From: Coffea arabica
Lineage: Eukaryota > Streptophyta > Magnoliopsida > Gentianales > Rubiaceae
Length of the DNA stretch: 64,000 bases
Assembly (NCBI RefSeq): GCF_036785885.1
Contig: NC_092330.1
Location: 12,682,525-12,746,524 of the forward strand
Direction: 5' to 3'
In this document: piece by piece, positions 34,175-62,510 of the stretch
Position numbering within the stretch: the stretch's first letter is position 1
How the letters are laid out: the number at the start of each line of letters is the position of its first letter
Position numbers and translations under genes: made by a program
Notes under the pieces: model-generated
Told to the model about the DNA's origin: nothing
Database searches by the model: none
The model's input: only the letters and a program-made list of their open reading frames with translations

Positions 34175-34705
34175 TGTTGGATCCTTAATCCAACATTGGA
34201 CTTATATGTGAATAATTATGTATTGCAAACTGTCAATTAAGATTTAACCCAATTAAAGTGATCAAATATAGTTTGGGTTTAATGTATCTAATTGGATGTG
34301 GGCCCTTTAATGTGTAGAAACTTATGGGCTCTTATTTCAATGATGTGCTGAAATAGGGCTCCAAAAGGTAACAGGAAAGTTACCTATAAATAGGGTTATG
34401 GTCCCCAGGTCACAGGCATCGTTTTAGTTGTCGTATTCCCTAATACCACAAAATATCTCTTTCCTGATATCCCATCGTCATGAAAGATACCAGAGAGAAA
34501 CTAAAGGCCTCTCTCAAAGGATCAGTAAATACCTGGAAGGCCACCCCAAATCTCTAAGGATACAAGTATCAAGTTTATCAATATGGATTCAGGTACGCTT
34601 CCGCTATTTTATCATTTATTTATTTCTTAATAATCGTCATATAGATCTTGGGTTCAATATGTGATGATTTTCACCAATGGTTAAATTTAGATAACCACCC
34701 CAACA
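34175..34705 (+). repeat. Copia 5' LTR
   Basis: The LTR begins TGTTGGATCCTTAATCCAAC, which contains a short palindrome, and ends CACCCCAACA. Its 531 bp include a TATA-type box at 34385. It lacks eight bases (TTGATCTG or the equivalent rotation) that the 3' copy has after AAATACC near 40248. Confidence 0.93.
34385..34393 (+). promoter_or_regulatory. Copia LTR TATA box
   Basis: TATAAATAG lies 210 bp into the 5' LTR, and the same motif occurs at 40098-40106 in the 3' LTR. Position and sequence fit the U3 promoter of a Copia element. Confidence 0.6.
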
Positions 34706-34707
34706 AG

Positions 34708-39533: not shown

Positions 39534-39897
39534 GGATATTTTATGCATAAATAAAATTTGGATTTATTTGCACTCTAACTTTGGTATGGTTTGATCTCAT
39601 AAAATTTAAGGTGGACCAGTTGGAAATAGGCATGTTTTGATCACATTACATGAAATTTTCATACTACACATCCACATCATGATTCATGTCATTCAATTGC
39701 ATTGATATGTGTGACCATTGATGGGTCGAGTTACGAAATTGTAACAAAGGCCGCTTTGATCCTATATTGGTGTAATTGATGGACCGAATTGGTTACAGAT
39801 ACATTGTGATAATGACAGTAAAATTGAGCTCATACGGTTAATTGCAAACATAATTATAAGGTTACACATATAGTCCAAGTAGGAGATTGTTGGATCC

Positions 39898-40427
39898 TTA
39901 ATCCAACATTGGACTTATATGTGAATAATTATGTATTGCAAACTGTCAATTAAGATTTAACCCAATTAAAGTGATCAAATATAGTTTGGCTTTAATGTAT
40001 CTAATTGGATGTGGGCCCTTTAATGTGTAGAAACTTATGGGCTCTTATTTCAATGATGTGCTGAAATAGGGCTCCAAAAGGTAACAGGAAAGTTACCTAT
40101 AAATAGGGTTATGGTCCCCAGGTCACAGGCATCGTTTTAGTTGTCGTATTCCCTAATACCACAAAATAGCTCTTCCCTGATATCCCATCGTCAGGAAAGA
40201 TATCAGAGAGAAACTAAAAGGTCTCTTTCAAAGGATCAGTAAATACCTGTTGATCTGGAAGGCCACCCCAAATCTCTAAGGATACAAGTATTAAGTTTAT
40301 CAATATGGATTCAGGTACGCTTCCGCTATTTTATCATTTATTTATTTCTTAATAATCGTCATATAGATCTTGGGTTCAATAGGTGATGGTTTTCACCAGT
40401 GGTTAAATTTAGATAACCACCCCAACA
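39898..40427 (+). repeat. Copia 3' LTR
   Basis: This 530-bp copy begins TGTTGGATCC and ends CCCCAACA, nearly identical to the 5' LTR. The purine-rich AAGTAGGAGA just upstream (about 39887-39896) is a plausible polypurine tract. AACAA follows at 40428 as the target duplication. Confidence 0.93.
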
Positions 40428-40432
40428 AACAA

Positions 40433-52865: not shown

Positions 52866-55137
52866 ATTGCCTATTATAAAAATATAAAAATAAAAATTTA
52901 TATAGTCAAGACGAACTCAAATTCTTAGTCAAATGTTGCCAAAAAATCATTAATTGGGAAAAAGGGTAAATTTGGATTTAAGAAGCCTAAAACAGTTACC
53001 TGTCGGCTGCTATGTTATAGTAGTTAGCTGTTTTTGTGTTTGGGGGTTGTGCCCCCACTCCCCTTGGGGGAAGGGGAGGCGAGATTCAAATTCTAATGGC
53101 ATTTGATAGGAAAATTAGACAAATTCTCAAGGGTTTGGGTAACAAAAATGTACCTCAATTATAGTGCGTAATTTTATTGTAAACTTGAAAATAACCTTTG
53201 GTTTTTCATGAGCAAAACTTGAAACACACACACACACACACATCTGATGACCCAAAACTTTAGAAATGCTTCAACCTGCTATCACCATTGTTTTCCCCAT
53301 TCTCTCATTTTTCTAAAATACTACCAAGACTATCAACAAATACGTGCATGGTGCAATATCTGTCAAAGATGCCAAATCAAAAATTGTTCACGAAAATCCT
53401 CTAGAGACAGAGGTTGGATTACACAGATAAATGCATGTATAGTAAGTCATGATTGTTTCCACCACCATTTCCGTTAAATTTAACGGTTCCGTCACCTTTA
53501 TAATTTAGTTCAAAGCATGAGGTGTCATGTTGTATATTTTGAAACCATAAGGGGCTTTTCTGTGTATTAGGCTTATCACAGGGGGTTTTTTTGTTTTTTA
53601 CCCTTTTAGTAATAAGCAAAAAGAAATTTTTTGCTTCACTTTTAGAAAATAATTAAACAAGATTAGGAAATAAGGGGGAGGGTTGGGTGGTAAGACAAAT
53701 GGATTGTAAGTAGGAGGTTCTGAATTCAAACTTTTGCATTTCCAAAAGACAAAAAAAGATTTGGAAATGAAATTCTCAATTCAAGGGTGAAAGGTAATTT
53801 TCTTGGAAAACTAAATAAATAATGCTTTGTTAACAATGCCTGATGAATCTTGATTCTATACCATTATGAATAGATTTTGAGTATTTCGTATTTGAGATTA
53901 GACAAATCAATCATTCTATTTTTTTGCTTGTGCATATTCCTAAAACTAAAGTCGAAAAGCCCTAAATCGGTGGCAAACTTTCACTTAATCTATTGGGGTG
54001 TTTGTAGCTTCTTAATTAGGACGTTCGATTCCATGTTTGTTTTTTTTCCCCTAATGATCAATTCTCAAAATATTAGGAACGCATTCAACAATAGAACTTT
54101 TCGTTATATAAAAACGTAAATTAATTTACATTTGTGTCAGAAATTATAGTTGTTTAGAAATTTTCGTGTTATGTGTTCTTACCTCTCTAACTTTTGGATT
54201 TTACTTGTGTTCTTCTATTTGTTGTATTTAATTATTGTTCACTTTGTGCTTTGTTTTTTCAAGCAGGAGAGGGGCAGGACTTAAAAAAGCAAGAGGAAAA
54301 AAGAGAGAATGGAACCCCTCCCAAAATCTTTAAATCTTGAAATCTCAACCTTAACTAGTAGATCAAAATCTATAATTCATTTTGTGCTTACAGTCATAAA
54401 TCACATAATTAATTTTAGAGTAAAATTTCACTTAGCCTATTGAACTATTTTTGTTCTCATTAACCCACTAGACTCTTTATGATTAATTATGAGGCTAACT
54501 CCGTCAACTTCAACTGTTAACATTATTACATAAATATGGTCACTTACCTTGATCAGATAAGGTATATATCAATTTGAGTTAGTTATTGAACTTAATATAT
54601 TATTGCTTACCGGAGGCTGATTTTACAGGTTGGAACAACTTGGTCAGGATCAGCAAAGGTGTACAATAATTTAGTGGCTGATTTTGCAGCTTCCAGTTCC
54701 ACAAGAGGAAGAACCAATAAAAAGACCAACAAGCTTCCAGTTCCATTAGTCAAGCATTTCCTTCTAAGGTAGGGTTGGTAGATGTTTACGCGTTCTTCAG
54801 TCCTCTGAAAGACCAACAAGACTTTCGAGTCATAATTTCTTCCAAAATAGGGAGTACAATACATTACTGTGCTACCAACATTCTTTTGATTCTTGGTCCC
54901 CGTAATCTGCACTCCAATTTTGAGAACTTTGCACTTCATTTCATTTTCTGCCCGCCAGATTGACGGACCGAAGTAGAAATTTCTTATCAAAAACATGAAA
55001 AACAACAACAATAAATGCGCTCAAAATAATAACTCAATTATGGGCTTTGATAATATAACGAGTTGCTTAGAAGAATGTAAGAAACCTCTAATATAATGAG
55101 TTTAACTAGGCTTGATCGCATACTTGACGTTTTGCAC
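52866..55137. other. Gene-free stretch with a CA microsatellite
   Basis: An (AC)n run of about nine repeats lies at 53224-53242. The 134-aa minus-strand frame at 54607-55011 has no recognisable domain. No RNA gene or paired-end element could be delimited. Confidence 0.35.
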
Positions 55138-55652
55138 CAGTGGTGGAGCCAGAAAAAATTTTTCAGTGGGGGCAAAAGCAACTCTAAAATTTTTTACCTA
55201 CTCTTTTTTCAGTTTTTTAAGGAAAAAAATATTCATCAACAAGTACAAATGATACATATATTTCATGAAAAAATCAAAAGACAAACTCAAAATTATTAAT
55301 GTAATAATAATTTTATTTCAAAACAAACTAAACCATTTATAATTGCTCATAGCGAGTTTTCATATTTTAATAACAGTTTATAACCTTTTTATTTTGAACT
55401 TCACGAAGTATATTTTTCTCAATAAAAGTAACTAATAGATACACAAAACTCCAGGGGGCACACTTGAAATTACATCAAATTTTTATAGGTATTATAGAAA
55501 TTTAAAAGGGGCAGTGGGAGCCTATAAACCAATAGATACACAAAACTCTAAGAGACACAGTTGAAATTACACCAAATTATTATAAGTATCATAGAAATTT
55601 AAGGGGATGAGTGGGGCCGTGCCCCCAGTGTCCCAGTGTGAATCCGCCACTG
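55138..55652. mobile_element. hAT-like MITE next to the receptor-like gene
   Basis: The 515-bp element begins CAGTGGTGGAGCCAG and its right end complements to CAGTGGCGGATTCAC. The 8-bp flanks are TTTTGCAC on the left and TTTTACAC on the right, seven of eight matching. That length fits hAT elements. No transposase is encoded. Inside, a diverged AATAGATACACAAAACTC-type segment occurs twice (about 55435 and 55531). It ends only 130 bp before the receptor-like protein start codon, so it lies in the likely promoter. Confidence 0.7.
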
Positions 55653-55782
55653 TTTTACACCTGAGTTGACTTGTCTCCGGTCTCCGGCCCTGCGTTCCAG
55701 TACATTGATAAGCGATTATAAATTATCCTGCCTTCCATTTTCATTACAACACTTTCCTTCACTAATTCTCCATACTGAAATC

Positions 55783-58700
55783 ATGCGCGGTCATTCCATT
55801 CTGATTGCCTCATGGGCTCTCGTTGTATCAATAATACTCAATGGAGGACTACTTTGCTCAGGTTGCTTTTTAGAAGAAAAACATGCTCTCTTGGACTTCA
55901 AAGCTTCCTTAAATGTGACTACAAATGCTCATCTTATCCTTTCTTCGTGGACTGGAAAAGAAGGTGACGGAGCAAATGCTGATTGCTGCACCTGGGAAGG
56001 GGTCAAGTGTAGTAATATTACTGGGAGAATTGTTGAAGCCGACCTTAGTTTTTTGCGAGAGAATATGGATGAGGATTGGTATGTAAATATAAACATTAGC
56101 ACTTTCATACCTCTGAAGGACCTGCGAACTCTAGACCTGAGTAATAATTACTTCAATAGTGAAGTGACAGGTAACTACCCTTCCATCTTTTTCTCAAATC
56201 GTTGGTTTATATTGTATAATTTGAAGTTTCTTGTTCTTGGTTACACAGGCAAGTAATTCATCTTTCTTCATCATCTTTTCTTTTTTCGTTCTAGCCTTAC
56301 TTTTGGTATTCTTGTCCGCAGCTTGAGGCAAGTTTTTCATATTTCTTCATCTTTTTTTCTCGGCCTTATTTCTTTTAATTTCTCATGTATTATAATTGTA
56401 GAAGACTCAAAATCCCATAAAAACTGACGATAGTTTAATTAAGCAGGAAACTATTTTGCATTAAATTTTAGCTGTGAGTTAGTCATTTGCACCCCTTCAA
56501 AACAACAAGAATTAATATATCATAAATTGAAAGAAGTCAAGAAAAAATAGCAATTAAAAAAATAGATCGTACAGGCATAAAACATCAACCTATCGTGATG
56601 GATTAGGAGCAATAATTAAGGAATGTATACATGAGTAAAATTGATGACTCTAAGAAAAAAAACAGGCAATTTATGTGGAAAAAAGTGAATGGATCGAGAG
56701 AGAAAAAAAAAAAAGATATTGCATTACAAAGTATACTTTTTTTTTTAATTTGAATTACTCTCGCTTCTTACCATCATTTTCTTTTAGTCAATTAGCAACC
56801 AAGTTTTACTTCCACGTTTTTTGATAGTGTGTCTTATTTATTTATCAAATAGTTTTCAATTCAATGGGTGACCGGTTACAAATTAGTTTGTGTAATGTAC
56901 AACAATTTTACCACTTACATCAAGTTTTATGCATAGTCGTTAACTTTGAAAACAAAACCGAAAAGCAAACATTTATATCTTTGCCGACGTGGAAAGTATA
57001 AAAGTGTGATAAATTTTAAATCTTACATCATTTTATTTAGAGTCAAATATCGAAAACCTCTTTTGGTAGAAGGAAAAGATCAGCTCCCTTTGGATGATGC
57101 TGCCGGCAAGAACCATGGTGGACCGCTGCAAAGCTCTAATAAGTGTTTCTTTTGCCAGAAATCAGTAGGGAAGAAGAAGCTTTATTATGAAATTTAATTT
57201 TTGCGATGATGTCATTTTGGAATTATATTTGACACCAAATTTTGTCTACAATTTATATATGACTTGGTTCAAAGGTCGATTTGATTATTTCATCATTGTT
57301 TTTCTATTAAAAACTTTAATCATGCTCGATTATTAAATTTAATAAAAAAAAAAAAGCTAACAGTTTCACTTTAATCCAAAACCATGCGGGTTAAATGGTA
57401 CGTTTTCAAATTATTGGGAGGAAATGTGTATATTGGATTAGCCAAAGGGGTTTCTTTGGCATTTAGTCCGTTTATTAGAATCTGACTCGTGCTTTGCAGG
57501 CTGCAGGAATTGGGCTAAGTTGCAAAATCTCAAGTCCTTATACCTCGATTGGAACAATTTCAACAACAGTAGTATAATTCCATGTATAACTGCAATTACT
57601 GAACTTAAAAGGCTGTCTCTCCGTGATTTGGATTTAAAGGGATCGTTTCCTATAGAAGGTATATTCACTTGCTATCTATAATTCTTATAGGAGACTTTCT
57701 TTAACCTTTTTACACAATTTTCTTGGACTTTACGTCTGTTCTATTTTTTGCTTTTCTACTTCGTTTGTTCAGCACATAGAAATAAATGAATATCTAAACT
57801 TAGAATGATTCAGCATTATTTATTTGTAATCTATTTCAATTAATAGCTCTTAAATGTGAAAATTACAAAGTATCTTATTTGTTTTTCCTTTTACCGTCAC
57901 AAGTATGGGATTAGACGGTAACTTAATTTACATATCCAAGTATGGGTAGTTGTTTGAAAGATGCTAATTAGTTAATCTTTTTTTTTTTTTTTTTTTTGTA
58001 GTTGTGAGAGATGTTGCATATGCCAAAATTATAAAGCATAGATATACAGAAAAGATAAAATTGTAGAATCCATTAGCATGAGAGTTGTTGGACCGCAATC
58101 TGCCCATTCAAGGAGTTCTAATTGGATCATCTTCTTGCTGCAGAATTCAAGCGTCTGGAAAAATTGGAGTTTCTTGACTTAAGCGGTAATCAGCTTTCTG
58201 GTTCCTTGTCCTTTAAAGGTACGCATATCCAGTTTGAGATAAAAGTGTATATAGGACAAAGCTGTTACATGATTTGGAGTATAACCATTAAGGATGGGAC
58301 AGAACTATCTGTATACTTTTCCCTATTTCTATAATTTGATGTTATATTTTGTCCAAATTCCAATAAGAAAATAAATTCCTAAAAATTAACAAATTTGCCT
58401 AAATTTCTAGATTAGCTGTACATACAACTTTGTCTACCACGTGATAAACGTCCCCTTTGTCTACCATACAACTTTTTACTACCAAATGACAAAGCTTCCC
58501 CTGCAGAGTGTGCAGCTCACATGCAATGAATTTTGTCTATTTTAATCGAGCAAATGGATAGAATAGCCCAATTTGATCCTTTTTAGCTGTTCAATGGATC
58601 AATTGACGTGAAAAAAATAGTATAGTTGACCTGTGGCCTAATTTACCTTGTTTGAAATATACAAATTCTTATAGAATAGGGGATGGAGATGCAACAATAG

Positions 58701-61692
58701 TTATGTAATTTTGATATATCCAAAACTATAATACTAACATAAAGTTTTGAACTGCAGAATTGAAGCTGGAGAGCTTGAAGGTACTCAATCTTGAATATAC
58801 AAATTTTAACAAACTCTCAGACGTTGAGGCTTTAACTTCTCTCAAAGCCTTATCTTTGAACGATATTGGTATTAATGATTCCTCCGTCCTTCAAGGTAAT
58901 AAGATAGGCTGTGAAAGGCTCGGTTGCTTGCATGAAGTTGCTATTTACTTTTCAAATGTTGAGCTAGACCGGATGAAATTTGAAAACCAACATTTCAATT
59001 TTTTTGCGTGTAACATATGATTTCACGGTTTCTGAATTGGCTATGTATTGACAATTCATACCTAGCATCAACTATTACTGTATGAAAACCTTACAATGAA
59101 CTTGGTTTTTGGACAGGAATTTGCAGTTTGAAGAATCTCCATGAACTTGACCTGAGTCGGAATAATTTTTACGGGCCTGTTCCCATGTGCTTCAGAAACT
59201 TGACATCTCTTCGACTTCTTGATCTCTCCAACAATATTCTCAGCGGAAACATCCCTGCAGCTCTCATTACTCCTCTCGTACACCTTGAGTATCTATCTCT
59301 CTCTGGCAACCTTTTTGGAGGTTCTTTTTCTTTCAGTTCTTTGGGCAACCATTCAAAGCTTCAGGGGTTCAAACTTGGACCTTTGAACAATGATTCACAT
59401 GTCGACACTGAGGATCTTGCTCTGCCCCCACCATTTCAGCTAAAGGCTCTCTATTTATCTGGCTGCAACTTGAATAATCAGACTCGAAAAATCCCAAGTT
59501 TCCTGCTCTATCAGAAAGAAATGCAAAATCTTGATCTGTCTTCCAATAAGTTAGTGGGCCAGATTCCTACTTGGCTTCTGCAAAATAATACAAACTTGGA
59601 AGTTCTTGTTCTAAAGGATAACTCTTTTACGGGTCCGTTTCTTGTAGATGATTCTCTGGGAAAATATCTAAGTCAATTAGACATCTCAAACAATGACGTC
59701 AGTGGTAAGGTTCCCCAAAATATCGGTTTATCTTTTCCATTTCTGCAGCGGTTGAATTTGTCAGGAAATTCATTTCTGCAGTGGGGAACCTTACCACTGA
59801 CGTCATTGTTTGAGATGTCTAATTGACTTAGATATTTTCCCAGAGAATCATCTACAAGAAACGGACCGTAAAAGAGTTATCCTTTAGAACAAGAACTTCC
59901 AAGTTTGTATTATTTTGCAGAAGCCAAGTAGGAATCTGGCCCACTAACTTATTGGAAGACAGATCAAGATTTTGCATTTCTTTCTGATAGAGCAGGAAAC
60001 TTGGGATTTTTCGAGTCTGATTATTCAAGTTGCAGCCAGATAAATAGAGAGCCTTTAGCTGAAATGGTGGGGGCAGAGGAAATTCATCTCAAACGAGAAA
60101 AATGACGTCATTTGAAGTCATTGGGAAACTTGACATGGGCAGAATCAATTGATTTGTCCCACATCATGTTTTCAGGGGAGGTGCCAGGTCAAATTGGAAC
60201 TGGATGTTTAGCCCTTACTATGTTGGTATTGTCTTATAATAATTTGCATGGCAATTTTCCTTCTGGGTCCACGAACTTAACAAGCCTAGAATTCCTTCAC
60301 TTGGATAATAACCATTTTATTGGGAGCATTTCACATGGATTATCTCGTTCTCCAAGTTTATCTTTGCTGGATATTTCAAACAATTCTTTTCAAGGCAAAA
60401 TTCCAAGTTGGATTGGAAATTTTTCATATTTGAATGGTCTTGACATGTCAGCCAACTTGCTAGAAGGTAGCTTACCAGATGCTATATGCAAACTTTCAGA
60501 TCTTGAATTTTTAGACCTCTCCAAAAATCAGTTGATCGGACCTTTACCAGCTTGCTCCGAGCTTACGTCATTGAAGTTCATCCACCTGCATCACAACATG
60601 ATCTCAGGGCCCATCTCAAACATGCTGTCTGGGAGCTTCAATTTGATGACACTCGATTTGGGTTACAACAAGCTGTCTGGCGGTATACCACGCTATATTG
60701 GTAAACTTAAAGAGCTCAGGGTCCTTCTATTGGGGGGAAATGAATTGCTTGGTCATATTCCTTTGCACTTATGTCAGCTGCAGAATGTGACAATTATGGA
60801 TCTTTCTCAGAATAAGTTTTCTGGGCCACTGCCTACATGCTTCAACAAAATTTCTTTTGGCAGCGGGCAGTTCTCCAACGATGCATTTTTTACCTATGAC
60901 CCGTCTTTTGGTGAGAGTGAAAGCTTCCCAGGGTACCCTGGATCTCATTTTCTGGCTATGGAGATAAGGTGGAGTGAGTATTATAAAATTTTTTCCGACC
61001 AAGAAAATGTGATATTCACAACAAAAAGTAGAAGCGAACGCTATGCAGGGAATTTATTAAATTTCATGTCTGGACTTGATTTGTCGTGTAACCAATTGAT
61101 TGGAGCGATTCCTCCTGAATTTGGTGATCTCAGACATATCCGGGCATTAAATTTATCCCACAACTACTTGCAAGGATCCATTCCCTCAAGACTTTCCATG
61201 TTGAACCTAGTAGAGAGCTTGGATCTTTCTTACAACAATTTCAGTGGCGAAATACCTTCAGAGCTGGCATCCTTGAACTTCTTGTCCATCTTCAATGTGT
61301 CATACAATAACTTGTCTGGCAGGGTACCTGATACAGGGGAGTTTGCAACCTTTGACGACAGCAATTATAGAGGAAATCCAGGTCTCTGCGGACCATTGCT
61401 CAAGAGAAGTTGTAACCCCTTTGCTCCACACCCTGAAAATGTTGGTGATCAAGACATAGAAGTTGATGGTGCAATTGATGTGGCAACATTCTATTGGAGC
61501 TTTTTTGCTTCATATATGGTGATCGTGATTTCATTTGTGGTAATTCTTTGTGTTAGCCCTTATTATAGAAGAGCATGGTCTTTTTATATTGATTATTGGA
61601 TCCTGTCGAGATTCTACGAGTATTGCGGGTCTCGTTCCTCAGAGAAAAAGCAAACATGGAAAGTGTTTAATTGGAACATGAGAAGGAGATGA
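55783..61692 (+). pseudogene. LRR receptor-like protein, disrupted by an inverted duplication
   Basis: Plant receptor-like proteins of this form sense ligands at the plasma membrane, usually with partner kinases. Exons are 55783-56170, 57500-57658, 58144-58218, 58758-58895 and 59117-59826. All introns are phase 1 with GT/AG borders and the joined frame is 489 codons. A signal peptide (SILIASWALVVSIILNGGLL) precedes a Cys-paired N-terminal cap (DCCTWEGVKC) and LRRs such as LRLLDLSNNILSGNIPAAL. The frame stops at 59826 inside the inverted copy. After it, 60112-61692 continues in the same frame for 526 codons with more LRRs, a cap (GNPGLCGPLL), a membrane helix (FFASYMVIVISFVVILCV) and a short basic tail without kinase. 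That part begins after a stop at 60103 with no good ATG. The architecture resembles the multi-exon RLP14/CuRe1-like group. Confidence 0.85.
59420..60078. repeat. Near-perfect inverted repeat of RLP coding sequence
   Basis: The forward arm is 59420-59716 (297 bp) and the reverse arm 59783-60078 (296 bp), separated by 66 bp. Base-by-base comparison shows one single-base gap (ACGGGTCCG against ACGGTCCG when complemented) and no mismatch. The arms encode LRR sequence from LPPPFQLKALYLSG to NDVSGKVP. ATTTCTGCAG occurs twice in the loop, once just before the reverse arm, and could have served as microhomology. A transcript across it would fold into a long duplex hairpin. Confidence 0.95.
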
Positions 61693-62510
61693 ATTGGTCC
61701 TAGTTACTCTATTGGGATTCTCAAAATTGGAACTATATGAGCTGAAATTCTGATGTCCAATATATTTTGCACTACAGTTTTTTTTTTCTCATATTTGCGG
61801 TTTAATTTTCTTTATTTGCACAATTACCATTTCTTTTCCGAATAGCCATAATTTTTTTGCCTAATTAATGTATGAAGATGAAAGCTTTGGAAAATTTTTA
61901 ATTGGTCAAAAGAAAATGTATGATCAAGCTGCGATTTTGCAATACAAATAGCCAAATTGTACAGTCGCTCAACTTTTTGTTTGTCTTTTTCTAGCAGCGT
62001 AGGGAGAGGAGAGGTCAGAGGAGGATTAAAACTCAAAATCTTTATATTTTGAGGTTTTAAACTTAGCCACTAGATGATTAACGAAAATGTGGCACAGCAA
62101 GTAAAAAAAATTTATTTCTTAATTTATTAGTTTAATTAACTTGTAAAATTTGTGTATTTTTCACTAATTATTTCTTTTACAAAAAAAAATCGTATCAATA
62201 TGAAAATTACAGCAGTTCAAACTATTTCTACCTATTCCCTTGACAATGATACAATTTAGACCCACATATTCTCTTGGTCCCAAAACCCGCCTCAGCTTCA
62301 CGTTTGGGTTTCGAGTAGCGATGCCAACATTGGGCCGCAAAATGGCATCACAGCTCAGTTGGTGCCCAAAAGAAATAGCAGAAAATTCTTGTAACATGGC
62401 CACGAGAAATTGTACAAGCAAAACTCTAAATGAAAATCAGAAAGAAGCAAAATCACACTGGGTCAGGTGATAGATGAAAATAATCAATCAAAATACTGCT
62501 TAGGAGCTAC
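61693..62510. other. RLP 3' flank, no gene
   Basis: This AT-rich stretch should contain the receptor-like gene's 3' untranslated region. The overlapping frames at 62164-62470 on both strands show no domain. Confidence 0.4.

Follow-up and report, generated by a model that had tools for sequence, protein, structure and literature searches.

A near-perfect inverted duplication in a receptor-like protein gene of Coffea arabica, a candidate hairpin-RNA locus of probable template-switch origin

A hairpin in the large exon of a receptor-like protein gene

The window analysed here is a 64-kb stretch of Coffea arabica DNA (C21:12682525-12746524), and searches of the genome covered 1,197,963,845 bases in 131 contigs. 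On the forward strand, at about 55783..61692 of the window, lies an RLP15/RLP14-like receptor-like protein (RLP) gene, recognised from its open reading frames, its Pfam matches and its named Coffea relatives. Exon 1 begins at an ATG at about 55783, encodes a signal peptide (both read by eye) and contains an LRRNT_2 domain (Pfam, 7.8e-11). Small LRR exons follow on the same strand within 57442-57678, 58122-58331 and 58751-59017. The large LRR exon, with LRR_8/LRR_1 matches, runs from about 59120 to 61689 and closes with a transmembrane-like stretch and a short tail, both identified by eye only. All exon borders are approximate. No kinase domain was found among the Pfam matches of the gene. Its closest named relatives among the protein matches listed were Coffea receptor-like proteins 15, 14, 21-like and 56, and a structure search by sequence returned only solved LRR receptor ectodomains such as GSO1, and the LRR receptor-like protein 7drb. 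The gene resembles an RLP in its LRRNT_2 domain and LRRs, but its frame is broken by an insert; its counterpart on C22 (locus L010) has an open large exon.

The insert forms a hairpin inside the large LRR exon. As the earlier note had reported, positions 59420-59716 are repeated in inverted orientation at 59783-60078 with no mismatch, a single 1-base gap and a loop of 66 nt; reading and measuring the sequence gave the same structure. The copied segment proper is slightly shorter (59420-59714 copied to 59785-60078), the last two to three pairs, next to the loop, being owed to microhomology at the junctions. Arm A (59420..59714, forward strand) is the exon original that served as template for the inverted copy, and it equals C22 L010:5010-5304 except for one mismatch. 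Arm B (59785..60078, reverse strand) is the inverted copy, 294 nt long in the alignment with a deletion of 1 nt. It lacks one G of a GGG run near 59867, so that perfect pairing runs in two stretches of about 211 and 85 bp. The loop (59717..59782, forward strand) consists of exon original together with most of a short copied piece, or scrap, CTGCAGTGG.

No further inverted repeat was found in the 64-kb window with arms of at least 60 nt (seed 14), both rows returned belonging to this hairpin. The RNA fold of 59390-60110 has a predicted energy of -585.9 kcal/mol, compared to -178 +/- 8.7 for 20 shuffles (z -47). The duplex of about 296 bp matching the LRR exon, as previously proposed, is reproduced in this predicted fold as a near-perfect 296-bp stem with arms of 297 and 296 nt. 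Such a stem is the long double-stranded RNA expected of plant inverted-repeat (hairpin) siRNA loci. The search of Rfam gave no family match anywhere in the 64-kb window.

A TGA at 59824..59826 (forward strand), inside arm B and 48 nt into the insert, is in frame and ends the RLP frame, which is therefore broken. Where the window frame stops, the C22 exon stays open, over 760 codons in all; the window regains an open stretch further on in the same frame, 528 codons long. Peptide words derived from the hairpin were found in none of the best 120 of 6,059 protein matches, which gives no sign of coding annotation and is neutral with respect to the readings discussed below.

Ancestral state and anatomy of the insertion

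The C22 counterpart is uninterrupted at the insertion point, and so are all 19 other loci fetched, which represent 17 places on C21, C22, C2, C15 and C16. These paralogues were taken from the best-scoring candidates of the genome search, and more may exist. The inverted arm copy was absent from C22 and from all 17 paralogous loci, with the two hairpin loci (the window and a second copy described below) as positive controls. One paralogue, L033, contains two short self-inverted matches that lie away from the arm region. For the diploid species, one annotated orthologue each was compared. The C. eugenioides orthologue (P0011) reads through the insertion point and differs from C22 at 4 of 484 amino acids in the compared stretch, its last residues diverging from C22. 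The C. canephora orthologue (P0010) also reads through, with 2 of 248 amino acids different from C22, compared to at least 21 differences from each of 14 paralogues in the same stretch. Because C22, the 17 paralogous places and both diploid orthologues run uninterrupted, the inverted arm is derived, and it is absent from the one annotated orthologue found for each diploid progenitor species. The proposal that coding sequence had been duplicated within an LRR receptor-like gene is thereby borne out, with the inverted arm as the derived state relative to the C22 counterpart and the paralogues. C21 and C22 would be homoeologues rather than alleles if the assembly is the published di-haploid ET-39 HiFi assembly (PMC11018527).

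P0010 itself carries pieces of its own gene that are coded antisense, which could mean that the hairpin is the remnant of an older, larger inverted duplication held in common with C. canephora. For residues 396-492, the matching sequence lies on the minus strand of C22 L010, at 5447-5397, 5099-4977 and 4792-4658, and the last of these pieces agrees at 41 of 45 residues with C22 and with the window but at no more than 38 with any of 14 paralogues. However, the antisense pieces sit between sense positions equivalent to C22 5956 and 6269, about 590 bp downstream, and reach well beyond arm B. P0010 is also uninterrupted at the Arabica insertion point, the Arabica exon is continuous downstream of 60118, and P0010 is one gene model from one assembly in which a misjoin is possible. 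We consider a shared older duplication improbable. Among seven candidates scored, no second protein with this antisense stretch was found, only P0010 itself. The antisense pieces, which cover RLP exon and sequence just upstream of the exon, suggest either that this gene has undergone a second inverted duplication or that the draft assembly is misjoined here.

The insertion was parsed against C22 L010, with the inverted tract aligned apart from the short tracts. It proved to be compound, a feature that goes beyond the earlier note, with scraps at 59776-59784 and 60079-60117 and a 14-bp deletion. On the left, normal exon extends to 59775 (C22 5365). It is followed at 59776..59784 (forward strand) by the first scrap CTGCAGTGG, a direct copy of C22 L010:5333-5341 whose original now lies at 59743-59751. 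Position 59749 within that original is C in the window and T in C22, in the scrap and in 12 of 12 polarising paralogues; among more distant paralogues, the base is C in L034 and L035 and A in L037. The inverted tract then follows, 294 nt from C22 5304-5010, reversed. The trailing scraps (60079..60117, forward strand) begin with GAAATTCAT, a direct copy of C22 5355-5363, and continue with CTCAAAC (C22 5275-5281), the 6 untemplated nucleotides GAGAAA, AATGACGTCA (C22 5282-5291) and TTTGAAG (C22 5363-5369). At 60117..60118, on the forward strand, C22 L010:5370-5383 is missing, a 14-bp deletion with 2 bp of AG microhomology, and normal exon restarts at C22 5384.

Except for the 6-nt filler, every tract has its template within a span of about 360 bp. 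The six joins that were scored carry 1, 3, 2, 3, 3 and 2 bp of microhomology, summing to 14 bp (P = 0.008 against simulated random joins), while the seventh join holds the 6 untemplated nucleotides. The first join has 1 bp of microhomology when compared to C22 and 5 bp (CATTT) when compared to the window's own source sequence. The microhomology excess is modest. Any one 7-nt scrap might match by chance and would be weak evidence by itself; the case is carried by the 9-, 10- and 294-nt tracts and their order.

The inverted arm is flanked by a 10-bp direct repeat, GGAAATTCAT, at 59764-59773 and 60078-60087. Mutator-like elements produce duplications of 9-11 bp. The repeat could be read as the target-site duplication of a gene fragment carried by a Pack-MULE-like transposon. 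Terminal inverted repeats were not seen by eye, however, and the cargo would be nothing other than the neighbouring exon, 66 nt away. Moreover, the ancestral TTTGAAG that normally follows GAAATTCAT is delayed after the right-hand copy by 23 nt of scraps, and neither join has a third exact copy in the genome. Transposition in this manner is the least probable of the alternatives that we weighed. Considering transposable elements in general (MITE or Pack-MULE), the locus shows no terminal inverted repeats to the eye and no clean target-site duplication, with 23 nt of scraps present before the exon resumes.

The parse, with its ordered nearby templates and microhomology at the joins, argues for serial template switching. 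A reverse-complement copy lies beside its template, the ancestral state is known and uninterrupted, and the joins bear microhomology and short extra templates. In our best explanation of the locus, the insertion is very likely a template-switch (templated-insertion) mutation that arose as one complex event in the RLP exon. Synthesis would have halted after 59775, stepped back by about 33 bp and copied 9 nt. It would then have switched to the opposite strand, from which 294 nt were copied in reverse, before a return switch added short direct pieces and the 6-nt filler and rejoined the exon with a loss of 14 bp. Pol theta end joining is one candidate for the machinery and microhomology-mediated break-induced replication another, the enzyme being our inference. 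With such an event, the RLP frame would have been lost and a near-perfect hairpin created.

Related events, with which this proposed machinery agrees, have been described elsewhere. Template switching has been considered as a source of RNA hairpins (PMC8794818), and those hairpins resemble the coffee locus in having a reverse-complement copy made beside its template in one mutation, with a perfect stem. Unlike them, the coffee inverted tract is hundreds of nucleotides long, is accompanied by several extra short templated scraps and lies in a plant protein-coding exon. In yeast, templated and inverted insertions at breaks are attributed to fold-back and microhomology switching (PMC11724301). 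The yeast events share with the coffee locus a local inverted duplication, microhomology at the joins and a multi-piece insertion, but the fold-back events given there are mostly about 5-34 bp, whereas the coffee tract is 294 nt.

A second copy, the surrounding region and the age of the event

The hairpin is present a second time, at C21:12641740-12642398, which the earlier note had not described. The block at 54690..62416 (forward strand) is repeated in inverted orientation, with the same hairpin, at C21:12639403-12647111, at a distance of about 100 kb. The 7.7-kb copy is 99.6% identical to the window block, with 14 mismatches and 6 gap openings over 7727 aligned bp. It also keeps exon 1, preceded by a 5' flank of about 1.1 kb (the block starts at 54690 and the ATG is at about 55783). 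Each join of the insertion has an exact match at just two places in the genome, the window and the inverted copy on C21, and a reversed-pattern control had none. Both copies share the T>C change at 59749 and the missing base of arm B. Since the copied scrap keeps T, the T>C change is most simply later than the event; the missing base may be part of the original event. The simplest order is insertion, then the T>C change, then block duplication or conversion between the two copies. Either an inverted duplicate of the block would have arisen later, at a distance of about 100 kb, or conversion between two existing copies would have spread the hairpin.

These observations bear on whether the reverse arm is an assembly artefact, created by a fold-back (palindromic) long read or by a misjoin. 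The near-perfect arm identity and the repeat-rich region would fit an artefact, as would an unplaced contig, C50, that repeats part of the region at 100% identity where tested. A fold-back read, however, would not be expected to switch strands again and carry on through the gene, and here normal exon continues past 60118, with normal gene sequence on either side of the arm. The joins bear scraps from nearby templates and a 14-bp deletion. Identical joins occur at two places, in opposite orientation, within blocks that differ at 14 sites, and both places carry the T>C change at 59749 as well as the one-base gap, which indicates that the hairpin structure has a history of its own. An artefact is very unlikely. 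The double occurrence and the anatomy of the joins thus speak against the assembly error that had been raised as an alternative to a recent event, and the inverted duplication at 59420-60078 is confirmed as real.

The wider region contains further repeats. A unit of about 8.9 kb occurs in four tandem copies to the left of the window (C21:12645747-12678013), 99.7-99.9% alike, and takes in the beginning of the RLP gene (window 53466-56056). On the right side, at C21:12786990-12807197, a tested 2.4-kb piece occurs three times in mirrored orientation, with the same spacing as this unit. The tested piece is also found whole on C4:76828983 and C7:7362065. Capture of the 5' end of the RLP gene by a mobile element may be how the unit arose. 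Within the window, 34175-34706 and 39888-40428 form a direct repeat of about 540 bp, 96.3% alike and 5.7 kb apart, and are a candidate LTR pair. The unplaced contig C50 (98,811 bases) is 100% identical to C21:12679824-12682424 and C21:12690524-12695267, where tested, and an exact-match search found neither hairpin join in it. C50 may be assembly redundancy or a true recent duplicate. Because the region is rearranged and C50 repeats part of it, its order on a large scale may be imperfect, and the 0.7-kb structure is the more secure of the two.

Over 296 positions the arms show no substitution, which places their divergence (K) below about 1%. By comparison, C21 and C22 differ at 220 of 35,453 aligned bp across five window-side blocks (0.62%), an estimate made without three further C21 stretches (L040-L042). 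This divergence is uneven, with 0.30% just upstream and 1.34% just downstream. Dating from arm identity alone is weak: at 0.64%, the divergence of one flanking C21/C22 block, no difference in 296 bp would be expected 15% of the time. Since 296 bp bounds divergence only below about 1%, the claim of recency is based on the ancestral-state comparisons. The suggestion that the event was very recent is therefore qualified. Arm identity, on which it had leaned, gives a loose bound only; absence from C22 and from one orthologue per diploid progenitor puts it on a better footing.

Changes in the large exon were polarised with 12 of the 17 paralogues. On C21, 10 nonsynonymous and 2 synonymous changes are present in both copies and 1 nonsynonymous change in the window only; on C22 there are 11 nonsynonymous changes and 1 synonymous change, a further one being unclear. 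In a comparison for relaxed selection, C22, with its large exon open, has the same nonsynonymous excess as C21. The excess in C22 perhaps arose through conversion among paralogues. At window positions 60211-60222, six C21/C22 differences fall within 12 bp of exon, and the C21 state occurs in some paralogues at five of the six; this cluster looks like a short gene-conversion tract. From window position 34678 to past the right end, the sequence is about 99.4% identical to C22:22628001-22667876, whereas L034/L035, another RLP pair with one member on each of these contigs, is 97.1% identical. The contrast, drawn from one comparison pair only, raises the possibility of homoeologous exchange or conversion.

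A candidate source of small RNAs

Arm B holds 276 sites of 21 nt, which were matched against 1 kb of each locus. Exact matches to the C22 gene were found for 237 of the 276. Sixteen of the 17 paralogues match between 18 and 159 sites each and the last matches one, while a single unrelated 1-kb control had no exact 21-nt match. A search for RLP paralogues matching the arms, one of the checks named in the earlier note, has thus yielded many exact 21-mers in C22 and in 16 of the 17 paralogues, so that potential targets in trans, matched in sequence, are available as at hairpin siRNA loci. An open frame of at least 700 codons, within the 3.3 kb fetched, is present in 9 of the 17 paralogues; therefore, intact targets probably exist.

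DCL4 and DCL2 cut long hairpin duplexes into 21-22-nt siRNAs. If the old RLP promoter were active, the transcript would fold into the 296-bp duplex. The resulting siRNAs could act in trans on the C22 counterpart and the RLP cluster, as hairpin-RNA transgenes do. At the soybean I locus, inverted chalcone synthase (CHS) repeats produce CHS siRNAs (PMC3534067). The coffee locus is similar in that the inverted repeat consists of coding sequence, belongs to a multigene family and has homologous targets at other genomic places; a further likeness is that siRNAs would come from a broad region rather than as one miRNA. The soybean repeat is a gene cluster whose silencing is backed by mutants, whereas the coffee repeat is a 294-bp copy within an exon and its silencing is putative.

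The birth of MIRNA genes by inverted duplication of their target genes was reportedly put forward by Allen et al. in 2004. The same origin appears in other accounts (PMC3237417, PMC5388894, PMC1790633). In line with these, the coffee arms have extended identity to the target gene family and a pseudogene as founder. Both arms resemble the targets beyond what would be a miRNA site. Unlike in MIRNA birth as described there, the coffee arms are still near-perfect over 296 bp; long-duplex dicing is thus expected rather than a single miRNA. The locus was not classed as a MIRNA gene proper, its stem being 296 bp and near-perfect rather than a short imperfect foldback and having no match in Rfam. By its anatomy, the hairpin is a candidate for the founder stage of an inverted-repeat siRNA or MIRNA locus. 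Coffee RNA-silencing genes are the subject of a published paper (PMC5407642). No publication on this locus was found among the matches listed in the open-licence literature.

The locus could instead be an inert pseudogene, in which the template switch was real but the repeat is untranscribed, loses its RNA to nonsense-mediated decay or is methylated, with no silencing in trans. This is the reading to which we incline. In general, neutrality is to be expected of most young inverted duplications. The RLP frame is broken, the RLP family is large and partly redundant, and no hairpin was found outside this lineage, as judged from C22, the 17 paralogous places and the diploid orthologues. Against it, exon 1 has been kept together with about 1.1 kb of 5' flank, also in the second copy, and the arms are unmutated except for one base. 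A real silencing role can be proposed tentatively and ranks somewhat below the inert pseudogene. Whether the full course of events applies is more doubtful still: that a hairpin-RNA gene has been caught at birth, one template switch in Arabica having turned an RLP gene into a silencer of its C22 counterpart and a cluster of related receptors, with the hairpin later doubled through an inverted segmental copy.

Inverted duplication is the starting point in models of how plant MIRNA and hairpin-siRNA genes are born, but the underlying DNA event has usually become illegible with age. At the coffee locus, the state before the event (C22, the paralogues and the diploid orthologues) and the state after it (C21, twice) allow a nearly base-by-base comparison, and the joins of the insertion point to a mechanism. 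The hairpin would also make the question whether newborn hairpins are expressed and active at once directly testable in coffee small-RNA libraries. If a hairpin gene has indeed been captured at its birth, the scraps at the joins would be the molecular record of the start of the locus, before any miRNA-like refinement. Should small RNAs be found, the locus would illustrate how one repair error can dampen an immune-receptor family in a polyploid crop.
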